DNA of 32,174 bases. Origin: Gemmatimonadota bacterium (lineage in GTDB: Bacteria > Latescibacterota > UBA2968). Made by a program: the position numbers and the translations under genes. A model generated the notes under the pieces. That model worked only from the letters and a program-made list of their open reading frames with translations. It was not told where the DNA came from and ran no database searches. Positions 1 through 9,479 of the stretch are shown piece by piece. Location of the stretch: the NCBI GenBank assembly GCA_026706845.1, contig JAPOXY010000037.1, forward strand, positions 1-32,174, given 5' to 3'. Position 1 is the stretch's first letter. Every line of letters starts with the position of its first letter.

Positions 1-654
1 TCTGGCATCGAGGATCAGGGCTTTTCCACTCACCTTCTCCCGCGTGTGTCGCCATTGTCCTTCAAAATTCAAATAGGTTTCTGTATTGGCTCGCCGATAA
101 TCTGAGTATGCGGCCGAAGGCGTCGCCATCAGGTATCTAAACGATCGCCAGATACCGCCCATGTTCGATACGGGCATAAACGCCAGGAGCAGTATCACAA
201 CCACGGCCAATACAGTACCCTCCCCCATAAGGGATCCTGTCTTGACCCTGTATTTCGCACTGTTAGGAAAAACGCAAACCGCAGAATGGGGATAAAACAG
301 AGGCACGCCGCTTTTGGTCGTACAATCGGCGATCAAGTGGCTCATATAGCCCAGGAGTATGGCCGCATAACACGCGGTTTCCCAGGCGAGTAAAGGCAGA
401 GTGACAACCGATAGGGCGAGCATACAGAGCAGCGAATGCGTAATCGTGCGGTGCCCCCATCGCCGCTCAATCGGGATGGAAGCAAAAGGCATCACCCGAC
501 CTATAGAACTCCTCGGCGAGTCCAAATCCGGAAGCAGGCTCCCTATAATCGCGCATGCGACCGCGGGAAGATTGCGGTGAAAGGACATGGAAAAGAGCGA
601 AAAGGAACTCGCCACAGTGAGCAGCCCAAATGCAATGTGTGTAGGTGCAGTCAT
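1..654 (-). CDS. YdjM/DUF457-family membrane-bound metal-dependent hydrolase, partial (C-terminus off left edge)
   Basis: The reverse strand is open from an ATG at 654 to the window edge, giving 218 codons without a stop. The N-terminus reads MTAPTHIAFGLL, followed by LLPDLDSPRSSIGR, the segment RRWGHRTITHS and GYMSHLIADCTT. These His/Asp motifs and the interspersed hydrophobic segments are the signature of the YdjM/YbcI inner-membrane hydrolase family (DUF457). The family's true substrate is unknown; the metal-dependent hydrolase label comes from the conserved His/Asp residues. The start codon overlaps the stop of the upstream recombinase-ATPase gene (ATGA), so the two are probably co-transcribed and translationally coupled. 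Family assignment is firm; the role with the recombinase is inference. Confidence 0.85.
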   Translation of the reverse strand, partial: MTAPTHIAFGLLTVASSFSLFSMSFHRNLPAVACAIIGSLLPDLDSPRSSIGRVMPFASIPIERRWGHRTITHSLLCMLALSVVTLPLLAWETACYAAILLGYMSHLIADCTTKSGVPLFYPHSAVCVFPNSAKYRVKTGSLMGEGTVLAVVVILLLAFMPVSNMGGIWRSFRYLMATPSAAYSDYRRANTETYLNFEGQWRHTREKVSGKALILDAR

Positions 655-2168
655 CGTTTGAACCTGTACATGAAGAATCGAATGCCTACCAGAATCGCAC
701 TGCCAATACCTGCCAGCACATAACCCTCCATACTCCCGATACCGCGCATAAAAAATCGCGCCGCGACCACGACCAGCAGGATCAGCACCACGGCGAACGT
801 GAGATCGATCTGATCTCGCGCGCCGGTGTGGGACACATCTCGTACCGCGGATCGCGTCACTGCCGGTTCTTTGCGAAGCCGTTCCACAATCTCAATAATA
901 GCGCGCGGATTGCCGGCACTCTGTTGTAATACGCGAGTCTCGGTCAGGGCGTAGTCTTCTATGTCGGCGCCCGCGGCACACTGACGGATGAGTTTTTTCG
1001 CGTCCGCGGCACACAGGTGCTCTATTTCTACGCGGTCGAACCTCCAGAAGTATTTCTCGTATGGCTTCCGTACTTCTGGCAGAGCAGCGATAATGGTAAA
1101 CTTGCGGTTGAGTTTGTCGATCAATCGCCCGACGGAGGCGGTCATATCCGACAGGTCATCCACGATCAACACGAACTCATTTTTCTTCACCGAGCCGAGC
1201 ACCATATCTGTCCAGCCCTGAATGGTTGTGCGGGTGTGTTGCTTTTTGATCGTTTCAAAGTCTGGACCATCCGGACATAGCCTACCGATTTTGTGCAGTT
1301 CCTTCGCAATATTTATCAGGGCTTCCTTCGCCGGCGAAAGCGTCTTTACCACGAGCACATTTTCCGCATTGAGCAACGCGAGCAAATGACTTTTGCCCAC
1401 GCCAATCGGACCGAGCAATAGTGTGTCAATACCCTTGCTCAAGTTGTCTGTGAGTTGACACAATTCCTCATCGCGTCCCACTGTCTTTCCCATCTCGACT
1501 CTCGACCGCGCAAAAAATCTGTAATTGCGATTCTTCTGGCGCGACCACCACCGCGACAACCGCGACCTGCGGTCAATGCGATCAACAGAACGCCGCTTTT
1601 GCTCTTCACTAATAGAGATATAGATGGAGGCCGTCTCAATGGACGCATGCCCCATCAGGTCCTTGATCCGCTCGACCGGCACATCCCGATCTGCCAGGTC
1701 AGTGCCGAAGGTATGCCTGAGCATGTGCGGATGGACGTGGCGGATCCCAGCGCGCTGCGCGCAGGTCTTCAGGGCTGCCCACACGGTCTTGCGGCTGAGT
1801 TGCTGTCCATTGCGGAGATTGCAAATGACGTACTCGGAATCCGAAAACCGACGGGACTCCAGCCATTCTCGGAGCACATCCTGCACCTCGGAGTTCATCG
1901 GAACAACGCGCTCTTTGCCACGCTTATCCGCAAAGCGAAGGCTCGGTGTGTCCGTTGACCAGTGGATATTGTCAACCGTGAGTGAACACGCTTCGGATAC
2001 GCGCAGACCACACATCGAGAGCACGGCAATGAGCGCGCGATCACGCGAATTCATGCGTACGGATTTGAGTGCTTCAAGCTCGTGTTGCGCGAGAGCTTTT
2101 GGCAGCTTCTGTGATGGAACTGCACGGGGTGGTACTGCTGGACGAGTTACGAGTGATTGGTGAACCAT
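651..2168 (-). CDS. Tyrosine recombinase-AAA ATPase fusion with two C-terminal membrane helices
   Basis: This 505-aa protein has three parts. Residues about 25-200 are a tyrosine recombinase (phage integrase/XerC-D) catalytic domain with the full set: R56 in GLRVSEA, K85, H148 and R151 in HPHMLRHTFG, H174 in LMGHAS and nucleophile Y183. The N-terminal core-binding (SAM-like) domain is missing; only about 25 residues precede the catalytic fold. Residues about 226-450 form a P-loop ATPase with Walker A GPIGVGKS (253-260), Walker B FVLIVDD (332-338) and a C-terminal helical piece around GNPRAIIEIVERLR. Two hydrophobic helices (about 455-475 and 484-503) end the protein. The ATG is supported by AGGAGGG 8 nt upstream. 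An internal start at M226 could produce the ATPase alone, but the frame is continuous. It is preceded by a sigma-54 promoter and overlaps the YdjM-like gene. Catalytic competence and membrane anchoring are predictions. Confidence 0.88.
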   Translation of the reverse strand: MVHQSLVTRPAVPPRAVPSQKLPKALAQHELEALKSVRMNSRDRALIAVLSMCGLRVSEACSLTVDNIHWSTDTPSLRFADKRGKERVVPMNSEVQDVLREWLESRRFSDSEYVICNLRNGQQLSRKTVWAALKTCAQRAGIRHVHPHMLRHTFGTDLADRDVPVERIKDLMGHASIETASIYISISEEQKRRSVDRIDRRSRLSRWWSRQKNRNYRFFARSRVEMGKTVGRDEELCQLTDNLSKGIDTLLLGPIGVGKSHLLALLNAENVLVVKTLSPAKEALINIAKELHKIGRLCPDGPDFETIKKQHTRTTIQGWTDMVLGSVKKNEFVLIVDDLSDMTASVGRLIDKLNRKFTIIAALPEVRKPYEKYFWRFDRVEIEHLCAADAKKLIRQCAAGADIEDYALTETRVLQQSAGNPRAIIEIVERLRKEPAVTRSAVRDVSHTGARDQIDLTFAVVLILLVVVAARFFMRGIGSMEGYVLAGIGSAILVGIRFFMYRFKR

Positions 2169-2176
2169 GAGAAATA

Positions 2177-2183
2177 CCCTCCT
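2177..2183 (-). promoter_or_regulatory. Strong Shine-Dalgarno for the recombinase-ATPase gene
   Basis: On the minus strand AGGAGGG lies 8 nt before the ATG at 2168. It fixes the start of the fusion protein and shows that the short N-terminus, lacking a core-binding domain, is not an annotation artefact. Confidence 0.8.
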
Positions 2184-2221: not shown

Positions 2222-2237
2222 TGCAAAAACCGTGCCA
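2222..2237 (-). promoter_or_regulatory. Sigma-54 (-24/-12) promoter of the recombinase-ATPase operon
   Basis: The minus strand reads TGGCACGGTTTTTGCA, which matches the RpoN consensus TGGCACRNNNNTTGCW at every position, with GG and GC separated by 10 nt. Transcription would start near 2211, leaving a leader of about 43 nt before the ATG at 2168. Sigma-54 promoters need an activator ATPase bound upstream, and a fitting operator array lies at 2315-2372. Confidence 0.85.
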
Positions 2238-2314: not shown

Positions 2315-2372
2315 TGTGTCATATGACACAGTTGGTGTTTCAAATGAAACAGTAACTGTTCCAAATGAAACA
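2315..2372 (-). promoter_or_regulatory. Three tandem 16-bp palindromic operators, 21-bp period (candidate sigma-54 enhancer array)
   Basis: Three copies of a TGT-N10-ACA dyad occur at 2315-2330 (TGTGTCATATGACACA, a perfect palindrome), 2336-2351 (TGTTTCAAATGAAACA) and 2357-2372 (TGTTCCAAATGAAACA). Starts are exactly 21 bp apart, two helical turns, so all sites face one side of the DNA. They lie about 100-160 bp upstream of the predicted start site, the usual position of enhancers for NtrC/NifA-type activators, and A-tracts between operators and promoter could help looping. The TGT-N10-ACA form is that of NifA enhancer sites, but which protein binds here is unknown. A regulator with a Fis-type DNA-binding domain of this class is encoded next door at 2651-3341. 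Confidence 0.8.
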
Positions 2373-2650: not shown

Positions 2651-3341
2651 TCAAAGCAATCCGCACCTTTTCATTTTATTCCTCAAAACCATCCTCGAGA
2701 TACCCAGGATCTCAGCCGCGTGGGCTTGATTCCCACCTGTTCGCCGCAATGCTTCTTGGATCAGTGCCTTCTCGACCGCGGGCCAATTCATCTGTTTATC
2801 GGATAGGGATTGCACCACCTGGTCAACGACACGCTCCGCGGGCATTGATGATATTTCTGTGATCGAGGAATTCTCAACGAGATCAAAACCCAGATCTTCC
2901 GCCTCGCTCCTGCGCCACAAACCGATCCAGTCTGGCTTGCACCCTACTCGCCTCTTTGCGAAGAGCCTGGTAGCGCACCGTGCGCTGGATAGCGGCATTC
3001 AGGTCCTCTACCTTGAAGGGTTTGCTGAAGAAATCAAACGCCCCTTCTCGCAACGCGCGAAACGCATTCTCGGACTCTTTAACCCCGGTAATCACAATCA
3101 CCTCGGTCTCAGGAGCGACAGACCGCACCCGCCGAAACACCTCAAGTCCATCCATCTTAGGCATCTTCACATCCGTAATCACAATATCCACAGCCTGGCT
3201 CTCCACCACCTCCACCCCCTTCTCGCCATCTGCCGCTTCGATAACCGTATGCCCCCTCGCAATGAGGAACTTCCCGATCGAAGACCGAATATGTGCATCG
3301 TCATCGATCACCAGAACCGTCATGCTAACCTGATCATTCAT
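2651..3341 (-). pseudogene. Response regulator remnant: receiver domain plus Fis-type HTH, frameshifted, AAA+ domain absent
   Basis: From the ATG at 3341 (GGGGGAA as ribosome site) the frame encodes a complete receiver domain: acidic DDD near the start, phosphoacceptor in DIVITDVKMPKMDG, T in VIVITG and K in FFSKPFK. That frame stops at 2883. A different frame, open across the join at about 2890-2940, continues to 2651 and ends with a Fis-type helix-turn-helix (ALRRTGGNQAHAAEILGIS). This order is that of NtrC-family activators of sigma-54 RNA polymerase, but the central AAA+ domain of about 240 residues is missing and the two halves are out of frame. It is therefore most likely a decayed regulator, or less likely a receiver-Fis protein with a single frameshift or sequencing error. 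The partner kinase remnant lies in the same orientation at 8837-9404. Confidence 0.75.
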
Positions 3342-3443
3342 TCTTATTTCCCCCAATTATTCGCAAGCGTTTGTTCGAGATTTTGAAAAAATAAGACGGG
3401 AATGGCAAAAAGCAAGATCACGCAACCAGAATACAGGCAGATT

Positions 3444-3475
3444 ATGTTTTTGTGCATTTTAATGTTTTTATGCAT
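3444..3475. repeat. Direct repeat of a 14-mer, 18-bp period
   Basis: ATGTTTTTGTGCAT (3444-3457) and ATGTTTTTATGCAT (3462-3475) differ at one base and are spaced by 18 bp. The site lies between the response regulator remnant and the cassette, so it could be an operator of either or a chance AT-rich repeat. Confidence 0.5.
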
Positions 3476-3546
3476 CTCGGCGCATATGATACCACCATTG
3501 ACGACCCAGGATGGCTAAAAGTGAATCAGCAAAGCTGGGACAAGTG

Positions 3547-3574
3547 TTGACAGACGCCCGCAGCATGTTATTTT
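3547..3574 (+). promoter_or_regulatory. Candidate sigma-70-type promoter of the ACP-radical SAM-FAAL cassette
   Basis: TTGACA (3547-3552) and TATTTT (3569-3574) are separated by 16 bp, on the strand of the cassette and about 200 nt ahead of the ACP gene. The -35 box is perfect, the -10 box is weak, and the long leader is unexplained. Confidence 0.4.
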
Positions 3575-3779
3575 TTTATGTATCGGGAAGTTCTGAGAAT
3601 ACACACTCGAACACCGGAGATTCGAAAATGAAAATTCAACAAAATAGTCATCGAGGCTATCGAAGATCTGGTCAATGAACAAGAGACGGAACAGAGGATC
3701 GAAGAACGTACTCAGAAGCCGTCGTCGATTCGGTAGCGTCAAAAACTTGTCAGGAGTGCCAATTTAAGAGAGGTAAGGT

Positions 3780-4052
3780 ATGGAAAAATTAAAATTATTT
3801 GAGCAAGTCGTTAAATATATTGGCGAATACCTCGAGACCGATGTGACCCATCTTAAAATGGAGTCTCGAGTAGCTTCTGCTATTCCAGATCTGGATTCCC
3901 TTAAACTCTTTGAGATGATTCTATATTTGGAGGATTGCTTCGAAATAGAATTTGATGAATCCATTATAGCAAATATCGACACAGTACAGGAGTTGGTAAC
4001 ATATATCCAAGTTCTAAGAACATCTAAAGCGTCTTCTGCTTCAACGGTTTAG
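3780..4052 (+). CDS. Acyl carrier protein
   Basis: The 90-aa product is a stand-alone carrier protein. The four-helix pattern is clear and the phosphopantetheine attachment site is D39-S40-L41 in DLDSLKLFEMILYLEDCF. The C-terminal dozen residues (KASSASTV) are a flexible tail. A GAGAGG-type ribosome site precedes the ATG. It is the first gene of a plus-strand cassette with two radical SAM enzymes and a fatty acyl-AMP ligase, so it probably carries the acyl chain activated by the ligase at 7098-8777 rather than serving general fatty acid synthesis; no fab gene is near. The gene is clearly AT-richer than the surrounding chromosome. Confidence 0.88.
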   Translation: MEKLKLFEQVVKYIGEYLETDVTHLKMESRVASAIPDLDSLKLFEMILYLEDCFEIEFDESIIANIDTVQELVTYIQVLRTSKASSASTV

Positions 4053-4095
4053 CACGCCAAAGTAAGAGTTCGATCCCATTTAGGAGATTTAAACA

Positions 4096-5439
4096 ATGAA
4101 ACGAGTACTTTTGACGACGGTGCCTAAAGAGGCTCTCATTGAGTCAGATGGCGTGGGCGGAAACTGGTACGATAAAACAGATACGTACATGGCTTGGACC
4201 TGTGCTGTGGATATAGAAGACCGACTCTCTGTGACTTGTCCCCCAACTGGCTTGAAATTTATCAAAGCCAATGTACCGGATATTGAAATTCTGGAATATC
4301 CAACGTGGCAGGAATATCTTAACGCGCTACAAGCCGAAAACTGGGACATGGTGGGTATTAGCTTCTATACTTGGTCAACACCGGTTGCCATTGAGATGGC
4401 TAAAGTCGCCAAACTCGCAGGCATCAAAGAAATATGGGGTGGAAATTATGGTGCCATTGGCCCTGGATTGGAGCCGTATTTCACACGTCTCGTCAAAGGC
4501 CCCGGAGAATATGTTGTCCACCAATATGTTTATGACCGTCCGCTGACTCATATTCACCACCCGCCTCTGCTCGGTAAAAGCAGTTTTCGGGGTGTGAGTT
4601 CTCCTGTGGGTTACTTGTACTCAAAGCGGGGCTGCAATGTGGGGTGTACCTTCTGTTCGACTCCCATTTTTAATCCTCGTGAAGATGCAATCGCCATGAA
4701 CGACTTACAAGAAGCACTTGATGTCTATCAAGAAAAAAAAGTGGCTCATGTCATCATTTATGATGAGAGCTTCTTTCTGCGAAATCATCTTGCAAATCTT
4801 GTGGTTGATGCTTTGGCAGAACGAGACCTCCCGTGGATATGTTTAACACGGGCAGATTTGATCCGTGGGCGAATAGGGAAGTTAACGGATCGGTGCATGG
4901 ATGGCGCAATCATCGGAATAGAATCCTACAAGGATGCCAATCATGCTGATGTGCGGAAACGTGATGATGTTTATAATGTCCGCGAAACCATTAAAGAATT
5001 AAACCAATATGGCCGCAGAGCTTTGGGTACGTTTATGGTCGGGTTTGAGCGAGATAGTATTGAAGACATGGAGACCGATGTCAGACAACTTGCCCAAGAA
5101 GGTCTTTTTGCCTGTCAATTAACGCTACTAACACCCTTTCATGGTACCAAGCTTTACAAACAGATGGAACACCTTATCAATGAACCAGATCTAGGCAAAT
5201 TCGATCTCTACCATTTAGTCTGGGAGCATCCTAAGATGACAGCAGACGAAGCGAGAGAACTACTGGCTTGGGCTCAGAGACTTGTCAACGATCCTGCCTT
5301 AATCTCGCGTAAGATCAAGGCTGATTTTAAAGAAATGCTCCGAAAAAAAATCTTGTTAAAAAGAAAGTCTATGGCAAGAAGTAGTTTAAGAACAAATAAT
5401 CCACAATTAGCGGCCTCAGCAGAGGCAGCATCCACCTAA
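4096..5439 (+). CDS. Radical SAM enzyme with B12-binding-like N-terminal domain (first of pair)
   Basis: The 447-aa protein has an N-terminal Rossmann-like part (about 1-160) ending in GGNYGAIGPG and KGPGEYV, which resembles a cobalamin-binding domain but lacks the canonical GGPH. A radical SAM core follows, with the iron-sulfur ligands C180, C184 and C187 in GCNVGCTFC. SAM-binding elements follow around GAIIGIES and the strand TFMVGFE. Enzymes of this layout (BchE, HpnP, methylthiolases and C-methylases) cut SAM to start radical chemistry at unreactive carbons. The C-terminal 60 residues are basic and low in complexity. AGGAG lies 8-9 nt before the ATG. Class is firm; reaction unknown. Context suggests an ACP-bound acyl substrate. 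Confidence 0.88.
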   Translation: MKRVLLTTVPKEALIESDGVGGNWYDKTDTYMAWTCAVDIEDRLSVTCPPTGLKFIKANVPDIEILEYPTWQEYLNALQAENWDMVGISFYTWSTPVAIEMAKVAKLAGIKEIWGGNYGAIGPGLEPYFTRLVKGPGEYVVHQYVYDRPLTHIHHPPLLGKSSFRGVSSPVGYLYSKRGCNVGCTFCSTPIFNPREDAIAMNDLQEALDVYQEKKVAHVIIYDESFFLRNHLANLVVDALAERDLPWICLTRADLIRGRIGKLTDRCMDGAIIGIESYKDANHADVRKRDDVYNVRETIKELNQYGRRALGTFMVGFERDSIEDMETDVRQLAQEGLFACQLTLLTPFHGTKLYKQMEHLINEPDLGKFDLYHLVWEHPKMTADEARELLAWAQRLVNDPALISRKIKADFKEMLRKKILLKRKSMARSSLRTNNPQLAASAEAAST

Positions 5440-5577
5440 CATCGAATAACTCGGTACGTGGTGTGGTGGTTGCTTTAGCCGACTGTGCCTATGCTCCGGT
5501 AACCGATGTCAAAGTAATCTTGCGGGTACCAAACGTATGCAGGATAGAAACTACGCAGAATTGGCAGAGGAGACATC

Positions 5578-7101
5578 ATGAGACCTTTAAAGATTTTATT
5601 CGTGCAATTGGGATTTGACAAACGATATCCAGACGTATCAACACTGGCTACGACTTACAATGATGGAATTTATTACGTGGCATCATTTGTAATGCAACAA
5701 TTTCCTAACGCTCAGATTGACATGTGTCAAATGTTTTGGGACGAAGATCCCACTTCCTTTCCGATAGAAAGCTACGATTATATCATGGTGTCTGCATTGG
5801 CTACCCATTTTTGGTCTAATATTGGTATAATGGAATTCCTCAAAAGCTGCAAGTCTTCCCAATGTACGCTGATAATGGGTGGACCTCACGCGACTTTCGC
5901 GCCCTACGAAGCACTGGAGTACGCAGATTTTGTCATTTTAGGAGAAGGAGAAATTCCTGCAGTCCAACTGATCACCTGTTTGGAAACAGGCGGTCATCTT
6001 GAGGATGTGGAGAATCTCTGTTATATTGGGGAAGATGGTTTGTTAGTCATAAACAAATTTACCTACTATGGTGACATAGGGAACATGATTAATCCCACTC
6101 TGTTGAAGAAGGCCCCCCGACTTCATTGGGCAACGGTTTCGATGTCCCGTGGGTGTCCGTTTGACTGCTCGTTCTGCTATGCAATCCGTATCCTTGGGCG
6201 CAAATTTAGAACGAAAAGTGTTGAGAACATCCGGCAAGAACTCGATAGCATTTACCACCAAACGGGATGTCTCCGCTTCTATGTCACCGATCTCAATTTC
6301 ACGACTCGAAAAGATTTCTGTTATGATGTCGCCGATGCAGTCTGCGGCAGTGGGTACAAATTCATCGCCATGAGTCGCGTTGAGATTGCTGATTCTCTCG
6401 ACTTGCTCCTGACGCTTAAAGAAGCGGGATTTGGAGAATATTGCTTGGGGGTTGAGTCTGAAGATCCGGGCGTATTGAACGCTTTCAACAAACGTTACGA
6501 TGCAGCAAAACAGACTTCGCGCCTGTTGACGTTTGCAGAACACGATATTTTTACGCATTCGGCGATTATTTTTGGATTGGAGTCTCAGGATGAAAGTGCT
6601 ATGGAATATACTGCCCGCTGGTGTGCGGATGCGCGTCTTGTCCACCCGACCTTCGTATGCCTTGCAGAATATCCCTTCCAAAACTTGCTCTTTGGCTCCC
6701 GCCAAGATATAGAAGATTATCGTATTATCATGCATGTGCCGACGTATCAACACTACTCCTTCGTCGGTATTTTTCCGCGGCACATGCGGCCGAGCCACTT
6801 ACAGCGTGTGATTTATTCAAGTTATGAGATTTTCTTTAAGCGAGCGTTTGAGATTGAAAGCCGTCCACAAAGGCGCATGCGATTGAAAGCATACCAGCGT
6901 AGCGTCGCATTAAGTAAAAAGGGAATGGAAATGCATGCCCAGTTTCTGGAAACATTAGAAAAGCCCTACTATACACCCACAGGACAATTAAAAGAGGATC
7001 TCTTGAAAGCCGATTTTGAAGAGAAACATGGCTCCCTCCGAGAATGGCTTATCAAATCCACTAAACGAGATACACAATTTCTTACGGATTCCAGCAAATG
7101 A
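5578..7101 (+). CDS. B12-binding domain radical SAM enzyme (second of pair)
   Basis: The 507-aa protein carries a canonical cobalamin-binding domain: IMGGPHATFAPYEAL (about 99-113) and ILGEGE (120-125). The radical SAM core has the cluster ligands C193, C197 and C200 in SRGCPFDCSFCY. It belongs to the large B12-dependent radical SAM class that does methyl transfers, cyclisations and ring contractions. An AGGAG site precedes the ATG. Its stop overlaps the start of the fatty acyl-AMP ligase (ATGA), so the two are translationally coupled, which ties the enzyme to the acyl-activating step. The 138-nt gap before it holds no recognisable gene. The exact reaction cannot be read from the sequence. 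Confidence 0.9.
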   Translation: MRPLKILFVQLGFDKRYPDVSTLATTYNDGIYYVASFVMQQFPNAQIDMCQMFWDEDPTSFPIESYDYIMVSALATHFWSNIGIMEFLKSCKSSQCTLIMGGPHATFAPYEALEYADFVILGEGEIPAVQLITCLETGGHLEDVENLCYIGEDGLLVINKFTYYGDIGNMINPTLLKKAPRLHWATVSMSRGCPFDCSFCYAIRILGRKFRTKSVENIRQELDSIYHQTGCLRFYVTDLNFTTRKDFCYDVADAVCGSGYKFIAMSRVEIADSLDLLLTLKEAGFGEYCLGVESEDPGVLNAFNKRYDAAKQTSRLLTFAEHDIFTHSAIIFGLESQDESAMEYTARWCADARLVHPTFVCLAEYPFQNLLFGSRQDIEDYRIIMHVPTYQHYSFVGIFPRHMRPSHLQRVIYSSYEIFFKRAFEIESRPQRRMRLKAYQRSVALSKKGMEMHAQFLETLEKPYYTPTGQLKEDLLKADFEEKHGSLREWLIKSTKRDTQFLTDSSK

Positions 7102-8777
7102 GTAACAAACCTTACCCGACTGTCGTTCACGCCTTCGCCGACAGCCTTGAGAAAAATCCTGAGAAGACTGCAATTCATATCACTGACAGTGGACTTAAAG
7201 ATGTGTTTGCACTTTCGTATGCTGATCTTTATCGAGAGGCATGTTGTGTAGCGAAGGGGTTTAAGGCATTGCACATTGTCGCCAAAGACCGGTTAATCAT
7301 CGCATTGCCCACCTCACGAGAATTTTTCGCTGTTTACTTCGGTGCGTTGTTCACAGGCGTCATACCGATTATTGTGCCGGGGCCACAACGCAATTGGGAT
7401 CGAAAGTTTTACGCCGAAAGACTAGAGGAGGTTGCTCAAGCTGTCGACACTCGGTATGTCATCGTGCCTTCTGCTGTGCATGAGGAGAATGAGAGGGAAC
7501 AATTTTCTCTGCTAACTCTAATCACCATAGAACAACTCCGACAATATGGCGAGATATCAAACCTGAAGTTAGTCACCGATGAAACAGACATCGCCCATTT
7601 ACAAGCCACATCAGGATCTACAGGTATTCCTAAGTTCGCTATCGTTCGTCACGGCAATATCGCGGCGAATGTGTCTGCAATCGGGATAGCCATCCAACAT
7701 CGTGCTGAGGATTCGTTAGTGACTTGGTTGCCTTTTTTTCATGACATGGGGCTTATTGGCATTTCATACGCACTTTTTTGGCAGTGTCCACTTATCGCCA
7801 TGGATCCGATGAACTTTATTCGTAATCCCATCTCTTGGTTACGACTCATCACGCACTTCGGCGGCACGTTGTCGCCAGCACCGAATTCGGCGTTTCAAGT
7901 TTGTGCTCGTTTAGCAAGACGACGCAGATTCGAGGAATTAGACCTTACAAGTTGGAGAGTCGCACTCTGCGGAGCAGAGCCTGTTCACGAAGACACCCTT
8001 CGGCAATTCTATGAATCCTTCGAGCCTTATGGATTTCGTGAAACAACTCTGTTGCCGGTTTACGGTTTAGCTGAAGCCACATTAGCCGCAACTATCCCAG
8101 ATGTAAATAGTATTCCTCGCGTTGAAAGCATCGATACAGACGTGATGGAGTCCACCAGACGGTGTGTACCTCCAACATTAAAATCAAAACGACACTTAAG
8201 AATGGTATCCGTTGGCACAGCTATCCCCAGTCATCAGGTGAGGATTGTCACTGAAGAAGGACTACGTGCCAAAGAACGTGAAATTGGGGAAATTGAGTTT
8301 TCAGGGCCCAGTGTTATTGGTGGATATTGGAGCGATCCACAAAAGACGAGCACCTTAAAACGAGAGGATGGCTTCCTACGCACTGGCGACCTGGGATACC
8401 AAGCTGATGGACAGCTCTATATTACCGGAAGAAAGAATGATATCCTCATCATCAATGGGAGAAATCTGATTCCAAATCAAATTGAAGCCGTGGTCGAAAA
8501 AGTTATTAAAAGTCGCATTACAGGTGGCGTTGCTGCCTGTGGGATTTTTTCCACAGACGCTAAAACAGAGACATTGCACCTTATCATCGAATCTCGAGTT
8601 TTACCTCCCTCAGATCTGACAAGACTGGAAATATTGGTGCGAGATGCACTCGAAGCGATATTCGGTCTGAGCGGGATAACTATCCATTGGGTAGCCAAGG
8701 GCCAGATTCCAAAAACGACCAGCGGTAAAATCCAGTACTATCGCTGTAGAGACTTGATTAAGAAAGCTTTGACATAA
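7098..8777 (+). CDS. Fatty acyl-AMP ligase (FAAL-type adenylating enzyme)
   Basis: The 559-aa protein is an ANL-superfamily ligase with all core motifs: phosphate loop TSGSTGIPK (171-179), LPFFHDMGLI (211-220), YGLAEA (322-327), RTGDLG (428-433), GRKNDILIINGRN and the C-terminal catalytic lysine K544 in KTTSGK. The HDMGLIG segment and the GRKxDxIIxxGRNxxPxxIE form are typical of FAALs, which make acyl-adenylate and hand the chain to a carrier protein instead of CoA. The ACP at 3780-4052 is the obvious acceptor. It starts within the stop codon of the preceding radical SAM gene. No thioesterase, reductase or condensing enzyme follows, so the product release step must be elsewhere or the product stays ACP-bound. 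FAAL rather than acyl-CoA ligase is likely but not proven. Confidence 0.88.
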   Translation: MSNKPYPTVVHAFADSLEKNPEKTAIHITDSGLKDVFALSYADLYREACCVAKGFKALHIVAKDRLIIALPTSREFFAVYFGALFTGVIPIIVPGPQRNWDRKFYAERLEEVAQAVDTRYVIVPSAVHEENEREQFSLLTLITIEQLRQYGEISNLKLVTDETDIAHLQATSGSTGIPKFAIVRHGNIAANVSAIGIAIQHRAEDSLVTWLPFFHDMGLIGISYALFWQCPLIAMDPMNFIRNPISWLRLITHFGGTLSPAPNSAFQVCARLARRRRFEELDLTSWRVALCGAEPVHEDTLRQFYESFEPYGFRETTLLPVYGLAEATLAATIPDVNSIPRVESIDTDVMESTRRCVPPTLKSKRHLRMVSVGTAIPSHQVRIVTEEGLRAKEREIGEIEFSGPSVIGGYWSDPQKTSTLKREDGFLRTGDLGYQADGQLYITGRKNDILIINGRNLIPNQIEAVVEKVIKSRITGGVAACGIFSTDAKTETLHLIIESRVLPPSDLTRLEILVRDALEAIFGLSGITIHWVAKGQIPKTTSGKIQYYRCRDLIKKALT

Positions 8778-8817
8778 CTGGATAGACCCCCTCCAGTACA
8801 GGCGTCTGCAAATCCTG

Positions 8818-8845
8818 ATTCACCTTTAATCTGCGTTTATCTATG
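8818..8845. repeat. Short intergenic repeat-like sequence at the cassette/kinase border
   Basis: The plus strand reads AATCTGCGTTTATC and continues TATGG. It resembles, from memory, an interspersed motif with AATCTGCGTTTATCTGTGG seen in many environmental genomes. Here it covers the stop codon of the kinase remnant, so it may mark the right-hand insertion point of the cassette. Only one copy is present in the window. Confidence 0.3.
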
Positions 8846-9404
8846 GTTGCTTTCGTCCAAAATCGGCAACATCACCCTGAACATCGTCCCCACGCCTTGC
8901 TCGCTCTCCACGGTGATCTCCCCATCGTGATTGCGAACAATAGCGTAAATAATCGACAAGCCGATCGACCACACCTCGAACATCTTCCATCATCTCCCGC
9001 AACTCATCCGTCTCAAGCGGCAGGCCTTCTATCAAACGCAGACAAATATCCCCGGCGGTTGTCTCGACGACGGTCAGTGGCTGGTTGAGTTCGTGCGCCA
9101 CATCCGCAGCCATTTGCCCCAGCGATACCAAGCGCGCGGACTGCAAAAGCTGCATCTCGAGCTCTAGTGCTTCCAGTGTTCGTGCAAGCTGCCCCGCGGT
9201 CTCGTCTAAGAGTGCCCATTCCTGCCCTTCTGTGAGTTCTATGCCGCAGTGGAGTTCTCCAACCTCCCTCGCTCTTTTCCCGCAATAGAGATCGCCCGCG
9301 TATAGCTTCTCAGCCCATCCTGTATCCCATCTCCAAATTCCCATTGCTGTCCATCGAAAGAGACAGACGTCTGCGTTGGCCGTGCCTTTAGGACGGTCAT
9401 CATG
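8837..9404 (-). pseudogene. Sensor histidine kinase remnant, frameshifted and lacking most of the ATP-binding domain
   Basis: Three consecutive frames are needed to read it. From about 9404 to 9265 one frame shows the end of a GAF-like sensor region (VSFDGQQWEFGDGIQDGLRS, then YTRAISIAGKE). After a frameshift at about 9265 the next frame continues VGELHCGIELTEGQEW, a linker coiled coil and the phosphoacceptor H-box SLGQMAADVAHELNQPL. At about 8965 the reading moves to a third frame that gives the very end of a kinase ATPase domain: GLSIIYAIVRNHDGEITVES, then GVGTMFRVMLPI, stop at 8837. The N, G1 and F boxes, about 100 residues, are deleted. The gene cannot make an active kinase. Together with the broken regulator at 2651-3341 it looks like one former kinase-regulator pair. 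Confidence 0.78.
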
Positions 9405-9479
9405 ACGGCTCCCGCACGTTGCGCGCAGGTCTTCATGGACGCCCACACCGTCCTGCGGACATTGTTTGCGTTTTGCCAT
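9405..9479 (-). pseudogene. Fragment of a second tyrosine recombinase gene joined to the kinase remnant
   Basis: The minus strand encodes RRTVWASMKTCAQRAG, which matches RKTVWAALKTCAQRAG in the recombinase-ATPase fusion (residues 126-141). Nucleotide similarity is high over about 50 bp and fades on both sides; kinase-like sequence begins right after. An ATG at 9479, directly behind the stop of the beta-helix gene, opens a frame across this piece, but in a different frame from the recombinase similarity, so it is debris rather than a gene start. Confidence 0.65.

Follow-up and report, generated by a model that had tools for sequence, protein, structure and literature searches.

A tyrosine recombinase fused to a membrane-anchored ATPase in Latescibacterota: a conserved architecture within an apparently undescribed plasmid module

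The DNA analysed here (the window) is a stretch of 32,174 nucleotides from contig JAPOXY010000037.1 of a Latescibacterota assembly (GCA_026706845.1). Near its start, on the minus strand, lies a gene (651..2168) for a protein of 505 amino acids, in which a tyrosine recombinase catalytic domain is followed by an ATPase and a hairpin of two transmembrane (TM) helices. The assignment draws on the open reading frame listing, on Pfam and on relatives with the same order. The reading frame starts with ATG and is intact, while the plus-strand reading of 651-2168 contains stops. A ribosome binding site (AGGAGG, 2178..2183, minus strand) is located 9 nt upstream of the ATG in the sequence. A preliminary description of the locus had recognised this single uninterrupted frame and its ribosome site, and had named a stop or frameshift near residue 220 as the result that would undo the fusion. 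No such interruption is present, and the same junction is read through in five other congeneric assemblies, which rules out an assembly or frameshift artefact as the source of the fusion. Among seven congeneric copies, dN/dS is 0.08–0.25 for the recombinase, 0.08–0.19 for the ATPase, and 0–0.16 for the TM part; purifying selection acts on every part of the fusion in this genus.

The recombinase catalytic domain spans residues 30-190 (1599..2081, minus strand). Pfam PF00589 (Phage_integrase) is matched as a full domain over residues 30-188 (E 3e-39), Xer chains in the PDB match by sequence (E 1e-28), and an R-K-H-R-H-Y active site within the PF00589 fold identifies the protein as a tyrosine recombinase. 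R56, H148, R151, H174, and Y183 are, like the Walker A core, invariant across the aligned Latescibacterota and Bacteroidota proteins. These five residues, which lie outside the beta-hairpin, had been correctly placed in the preliminary description, but the sixth, the catalytic lysine, is K82 rather than K85. K82 is invariant in the alignment of relatives and corresponds to K172 of XerD. Two decayed copies, L040 and L056, interrupt that alignment, either at R56 or in the H148-R151 box. In L056, one of the multi-copy fusions (C48 of genome G031), recombinase residues 138-168, the H-x-x-R region, are missing, which indicates that copies of the fusion decay.

In 16 fused proteins, no more than 34–59 residues of the sequence used stand ahead of the first catalytic arginine (Arg I). 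This leaves no space for a core-binding domain, which is thus absent throughout the fused family, as had been noted for the window protein. The fusion consequently departs from the plan of simple tyrosine recombinases, which have two domains, including an N-terminal core-binding domain (PMC8138268). It had been argued that DNA clamping would therefore have to come from the ATPase part or from a partner. This need not follow, because recombinases of the FimB/FimE type are also of catalytic-domain size; the corresponding NCBIfam model (NF007370, invertases of about 200 aa) matches the fusion recombinase with E 3e-16. The NCBIfam XerA, XerD, and XerC models match with E 1e-42 to 1e-37, although at 129–144 bits against cut-offs of 220–335.

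Residues 229-435 (864..1484, minus strand) form an AAA_16/STAND-like ATPase. The Walker A (253-260) and Walker B (332-338) motifs proposed earlier are both confirmed, and are joined by a GNPR motif (419-422). AAA_16 matches residues 230-345 weakly (Pfam, E 8e-5, under the curated cut-off), nSTAND and NB-ARC profiles are also matched, and a PDB profile search returned generic AAA+/STAND matches. The window protein has no FtsK match, its best being AAA_16. Across 18 aligned relatives, G256, G258, K259, G419, and P421 are invariant, and Walker A is accompanied by a C-terminal hairpin of the type 'RY...G.G...LY..GG.G.A'. In the window protein, this hairpin occupies residues 454-500 (669..809, minus strand), with hydrophobic helices at about 454-474 and 484-500. 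Their hydropathy (2.9 and 2.0) bears out the two C-terminal helices of the preliminary description. Two helices and a basic tail occur in nearly all of the 16 fused proteins, the Flammeovirga protein having a single helix above the threshold. The L038 and L039 ATPases contain in-frame linker insertions between Walker A and Walker B, with a repeat-like peptide (SNNPRNPRNPSHPRSD), and those of genomes G031 and G039 have different long linkers in that position. An AlphaFold model built from 11 close sequences was too poor for use (mean pLDDT 43).

The next gene downstream (1..654, minus strand), cut by the contig end, encodes a YdjM/DUF457 membrane 'metal-dependent hydrolase' (PF04307, E 8.5e-29; relatives have the same neighbour). 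Its start overlaps the fusion stop (ATGA). The partner, 414 aa at full length in L034, carries a further C-terminal domain beyond the N-terminal PF04307 domain. Aligned partners share H6, PD43xD45, S49, G52, H68-R69, H73-S74, D110, R136, and E145; a PDB profile search of YdjM returned nothing useful. In Latescibacterota, a gene for an HlyD adaptor directly follows YdjM, whereas Thermus YdjM (L133:3818-5449) has an HlyD-like coiled-coil extension of its own. Together, these arrangements hint at a YdjM-adaptor complex.

Contigs that match the fusion are mostly Candidatus Latescibacterota metagenome-assembled genomes. Within the genus, the fusion is present in G001, G002, G003, G009, and G010 (87–94% identity), and G007 has a truncated copy. 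The host genome has a second copy (C148), without the recombinase, at 73% identity and beside its own YdjM gene. In another family of Latescibacterota, fusions occur in G031 (54%) and G039 (47%). The ATPase-2TM part is present in only 13 of the 64 genomes of the phylum examined. Outside the phylum, tblastn detects the complete architecture at 24–29% identity and 92–94% coverage on the plasmids Flavobacterium pA5BP1, Haliscomenobacter pHALHY01 and pHALHY02, and Spirosoma pTS, and on a Flammeovirga plasmid. On Thiospirochaeta pSpe, a Spirochaetota plasmid, the fusion spans the record origin. It is the sole annotated recombinase on pA5BP1 and pTS, both of which also carry ParA. The possibility that the window gene is an isolated fusion, with separate genes in all relatives, fails against these fused relatives in two Latescibacterota families and on Bacteroidota and Spirochaetota plasmids, and recurrence likewise rules out a chance fusion. 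The order of recombinase, ATPase, and two TM helices is a genuine architecture with an intact active site. The preliminary description knew of no characterised system with this order; no characterised counterpart was found here, and a literature search that reached few subscription papers returned no description. A viral origin was also considered and rejected: scanning IMG/VR with the ATPase profile gave no relatives, and full-profile matches in IMG/VR and in phage records (none covering 80% of the query) were confined to the recombinase part.

A search with the ATPase part alone recovered plasmid relatives without the recombinase, in Thermus, cyanobacteria, Nitrosococcus, Allochromatium, Methylobacter, Desulfocapsa, and a Fusobacteria bacterium. 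Thus, a core of ATPase-2TM and YdjM is kept without the recombinase. A YdjM-type 'metal-dependent hydrolase' gene is near the ATPase-2TM gene in all 23 plasmid loci inspected, mostly as the next gene. The window genes conform to this module, as their ATPase has the conserved C-terminal hairpin and lies next to a YdjM gene, with the ATGA overlap. In the loci read, ParA or ParAB genes are close to the pair on several plasmids (a raw occurrence), including a ParA-type gene on the Fusobacteria plasmid (Pfam). A KfrA_N protein is encoded immediately upstream of the ATPase on Anabaena, Calothrix, and Dolichospermum plasmids. Genes for thermonuclease-family or non-specific DNA/RNA endonucleases lie near the pair in unrelated plasmid hosts (L130, L133–L135, L139, L140, and L257). 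The observation made in the preliminary description is borne out, and its interpretation holds in part. It was incomplete in that the YdjM partner, the plasmid context, the recombinase-less relatives, and the sigma-54 control described below had all been missed.

In the ATPase tree, fused and Latescibacterota solo proteins form one clade (99/98) as against the plasmid solo proteins, with the Latescibacterota solo proteins nested inside it. In the recombinase tree, which has long deep branches, the Latescibacterota fused proteins group together (97). The AU test does not reject a single clade for all fused recombinases (p 0.67), and the likelihood is higher when they are constrained together. 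The simplest history would be one fusion, followed by several losses of the recombinase in Latescibacterota. Such losses have occurred repeatedly (G004, G005, and solo paralogs), so the recombinase is not essential to the module. In G003, an Rce1-like protease gene sits between the leader and the recombinase, and in the G004 protein, which has no recombinase, the leader runs into '...HPTPDVL', which matches the start of that protease gene. This retained scar supports loss. At L039:7612-8247 and L038:1394-1750, the shared leader peptide and the recombinase are separated by all or part of an Rce1-like (CPBP) membrane protease gene. In comparisons within the genus, four pairs (of 21 tested, p uncorrected) show less synonymous divergence in the recombinase than in the ATPase; between the window and G001 it amounts to 14/159 against 55/248 codons (p 0.0004, uncorrected, 21 pairs). 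The lower recombinase divergence suggests domain-wise recombination within the genus.

Upstream of the fusion is an exact match to a sigma-54-type promoter (TGGCACGGTTTTTGC, 2223..2237, minus strand), conserved in the aligned loci. Three palindromes of the TGTTTCATTTGAAACA type lie 78 bp further upstream (2315..2372, minus strand), at 2315, 2336, and 2357 with an exact spacing of 21 bp. A search of the whole genome that allowed up to one mismatch finds the palindrome at the two paralogous loci alone, and a reversed control gave none. The same block of promoter and palindromes precedes both fused and solo genes. The palindromes are likely activator binding sites. They are disfavoured as recombination sites, because recombinase-less loci keep them and because of their position 78 bp ahead of a sigma-54 promoter. 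Beside the operon, open reading frames, Pfam, and relatives reveal an NtrC-like response regulator (2651..3356, minus strand) whose AAA+ domain is deleted, leaving the receiver (2883-3356) and HTH_8 (2651-2998) in different frames. The deletion is about 740–790 bp relative to L034 and L037. An intact NtrC-type regulator of 470 aa is encoded in L034 (6247-7659), and the gene is adjacent to the operon there and in other relatives. By inference, the NtrC-type regulator would bind the 21-bp palindromes, and the operon in this genus is apparently controlled by a dedicated NtrC-type regulator and sigma-54. The window copy of the regulator should no longer activate sigma-54.

The architecture is a conserved family within a broader plasmid module, and apparently an undescribed one. 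Rather than a one-off fusion, the fused protein is probably a machine, not described before, for the anchoring, separation or movement of plasmid DNA. Our preferred reading, to which we give a probability of roughly 0.4, is that it is a member of an undescribed family of membrane-anchored ATPases, paired with a YdjM-type hydrolase and typically plasmid-borne, which may serve DNA anchoring or segregation and has acquired an Xer-like recombinase. ATPase-2TM and YdjM would form an envelope complex that holds plasmid DNA (chromosomal DNA in Latescibacterota) at the membrane during segregation. Contact with DNA would be made by a DNA-binding partner, either N-terminal or upstream. This partner could be a KfrA-like protein in several cyanobacterial plasmids, and the fused tyrosine recombinase in the Bacteroidota, Spirochaetota, and Latescibacterota clade. 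The role of the recombinase is probably to resolve or tether DNA: gated by ATP, it might resolve multimers, or invert or excise a local segment, at the membrane. Evidence for this reading includes the same fusion on plasmids, its place as the sole annotated recombinase on two that carry ParA, the constant YdjM partner, nearby ParA or ParAB, upstream KfrA_N, the single fused clade, purifying selection, and dedicated regulation. Against it, the gene is seemingly chromosomal in Latescibacterota, where plasmid maintenance is not needed, no recombination site of the fusion was found, and the recombinase has been lost repeatedly. A search for dif-like sites upstream of the plasmid copies yielded only a terminator-like hairpin, within a 284-bp block common to pHALHY01 and pHALHY02. 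In the window genus, the system appears to be chromosomal and the recombinase part dispensable.

The closest functional analogy is Xer recombination controlled by FtsK. The catalytic domain of the fusion is nearest to the Xer type (XerC/XerD, XerH, XerA), and in both cases a membrane-anchored ATPase acts, or would act, with a recombinase. However, the fusion is a single polypeptide with a YdjM partner and is mostly plasmid-borne. It is not a member of the Xer/FtsK system, because it fails the equivalog scores, lacks a core-binding domain, and has an AAA_16/STAND-like ATPase rather than one of the FtsK/HerA type. FimB/FimE-type DNA invertases resemble it as stand-alone recombinases of catalytic-domain size, but have neither an ATPase nor a membrane part, and no invertible element, their defining feature, was found here. 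Plasmid stability regions with KfrA and ParA share its gene neighbourhood; kfr and par loci are not known to include a pair of membrane ATPase and YdjM. The Escherichia coli inner-membrane protein YdjM (DUF457) equates to the N-terminal domain of the partner (PF04307), whereas the partner has an additional domain at its C terminus and is linked to the ATPase.

A wider version of the preferred reading, held more tentatively, is a pan-phylum plasmid machine of a hitherto undescribed kind. Here, a two-gene membrane complex of ATPase-2TM and YdjM, with optional HlyD/TolC-like and TrwB-like partners, would tether or move plasmid DNA at the envelope; in one clade, a recombinase fused to the motor would carry out strand exchange at the membrane under ATP control.

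It is also conceivable, if rather unlikely, that the recombinase is only a DNA-binding module, no longer catalytic in vivo, the system being a membrane tether for plasmid or chromosome, or a membrane complex under sigma-54 control. The repeated disappearance of the recombinase from loci that keep ATPase and YdjM, KfrA-like proteins in the equivalent position, and the dedicated sigma-54 control are all consistent with such a tether. Yet the catalytic residues are conserved between proteins that are only about 25% identical, and the dN/dS of the recombinase part is low.

An improbable alternative is an envelope-spanning apparatus for export or DNA transfer, serving plasmids classed as non-mobilizable. 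The ATPase, YdjM, an HlyD-type adaptor, and a TolC-like coiled-coil protein would form the channel, a TrwB/HerA-like ATPase would drive DNA through it, and the recombinase would close or process the transferred circle. The Latescibacterota adaptor gene and the HlyD-like extension of Thermus YdjM are in keeping with this, as are an outer-membrane-efflux-type coiled-coil gene between ATPase and YdjM in Thermus, a TrwB/HerA-like ATPase downstream of YdjM in cyanobacteria, and the nuclease genes nearby on several plasmids. Moreover, 44 of the 45 carrier plasmids are typed non-mobilizable. These partners are not universal, however, and gammaproteobacterial and Bacteroidota loci contain the pair alone. 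Relaxase, mating-pair or pilus genes, the first two of which define conjugative (T4SS) systems, were not seen in the plasmid loci read, and transfer has never been observed.

Less probable again is a membrane-linked antiviral or plasmid-conflict system, comprising a STAND-like sensor ATPase, YdjM as membrane effector, and an N-terminal domain that acts on DNA. The nSTAND-type profile matches, the exchangeable N-terminus, and the restriction-modification, DruA, and toxin genes near the module on some plasmids point this way. On the other hand, the ATPase has no repeat sensor region, and the linkage is instead to partition and DNA-binding genes. No PADLOC model rises above noise for ATPase or YdjM (the best, mad8, has E 0.003 over a short stretch), and without a PADLOC family match as a STAND NTPase, filing as a defence system was rejected.

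Least probable is an integration or transposition device, in which the ATPase would select targets like TniB, TnsC or IstB and the recombinase would be the integrase of a mobile element: G031 and G039 have three to four copies of the fusion, several on short contigs, and IstB profiles match weakly (IS21 helper, E 0.002, 17.8 bits against a cut-off of 200), but a membrane hairpin and a YdjM partner do not belong to such elements, neither ends nor direct repeats nor cargo were found, and the fused locus is syntenic across species in genus g1. The TniB/TnsC/IstB/MuB ATPases are soluble and serve DDE transposases. They are similar as AAA+-type ATPases that work with a recombination enzyme; the fusion has a tyrosine recombinase and a membrane hairpin instead, no significant match to these families, and no conserved transposase partner for its ATPase.

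If the preferred reading is true, recombination and its control by a membrane ATPase, which are separate proteins in Xer/FtsK, are united in one chain that can be purified and tested. Whatever the mechanism, the ATPase-2TM and YdjM pair is a conserved plasmid module without an assigned role, shared by hosts as different as Thermus, cyanobacteria, and Bacteroidota. Cultured hosts are available for testing it (Synechocystis pSYSX, Thermus plasmids, and Spirosoma pTS), and it provides a lead on the function of YdjM/DUF457.

Further along the window, a segment of about 6 kb (3475-9450), with an acyl carrier, two radical SAM B12-type genes, and an AMP-ligase gene, is absent from this place in L034, L037, and L054. 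It ends in a broken histidine kinase fragment (8841-9479). Right at the edge of a synteny block, a 48-bp fragment (9411-9458) is 90% identical to the L038 recombinase gene, and is probably the remnant of another copy.
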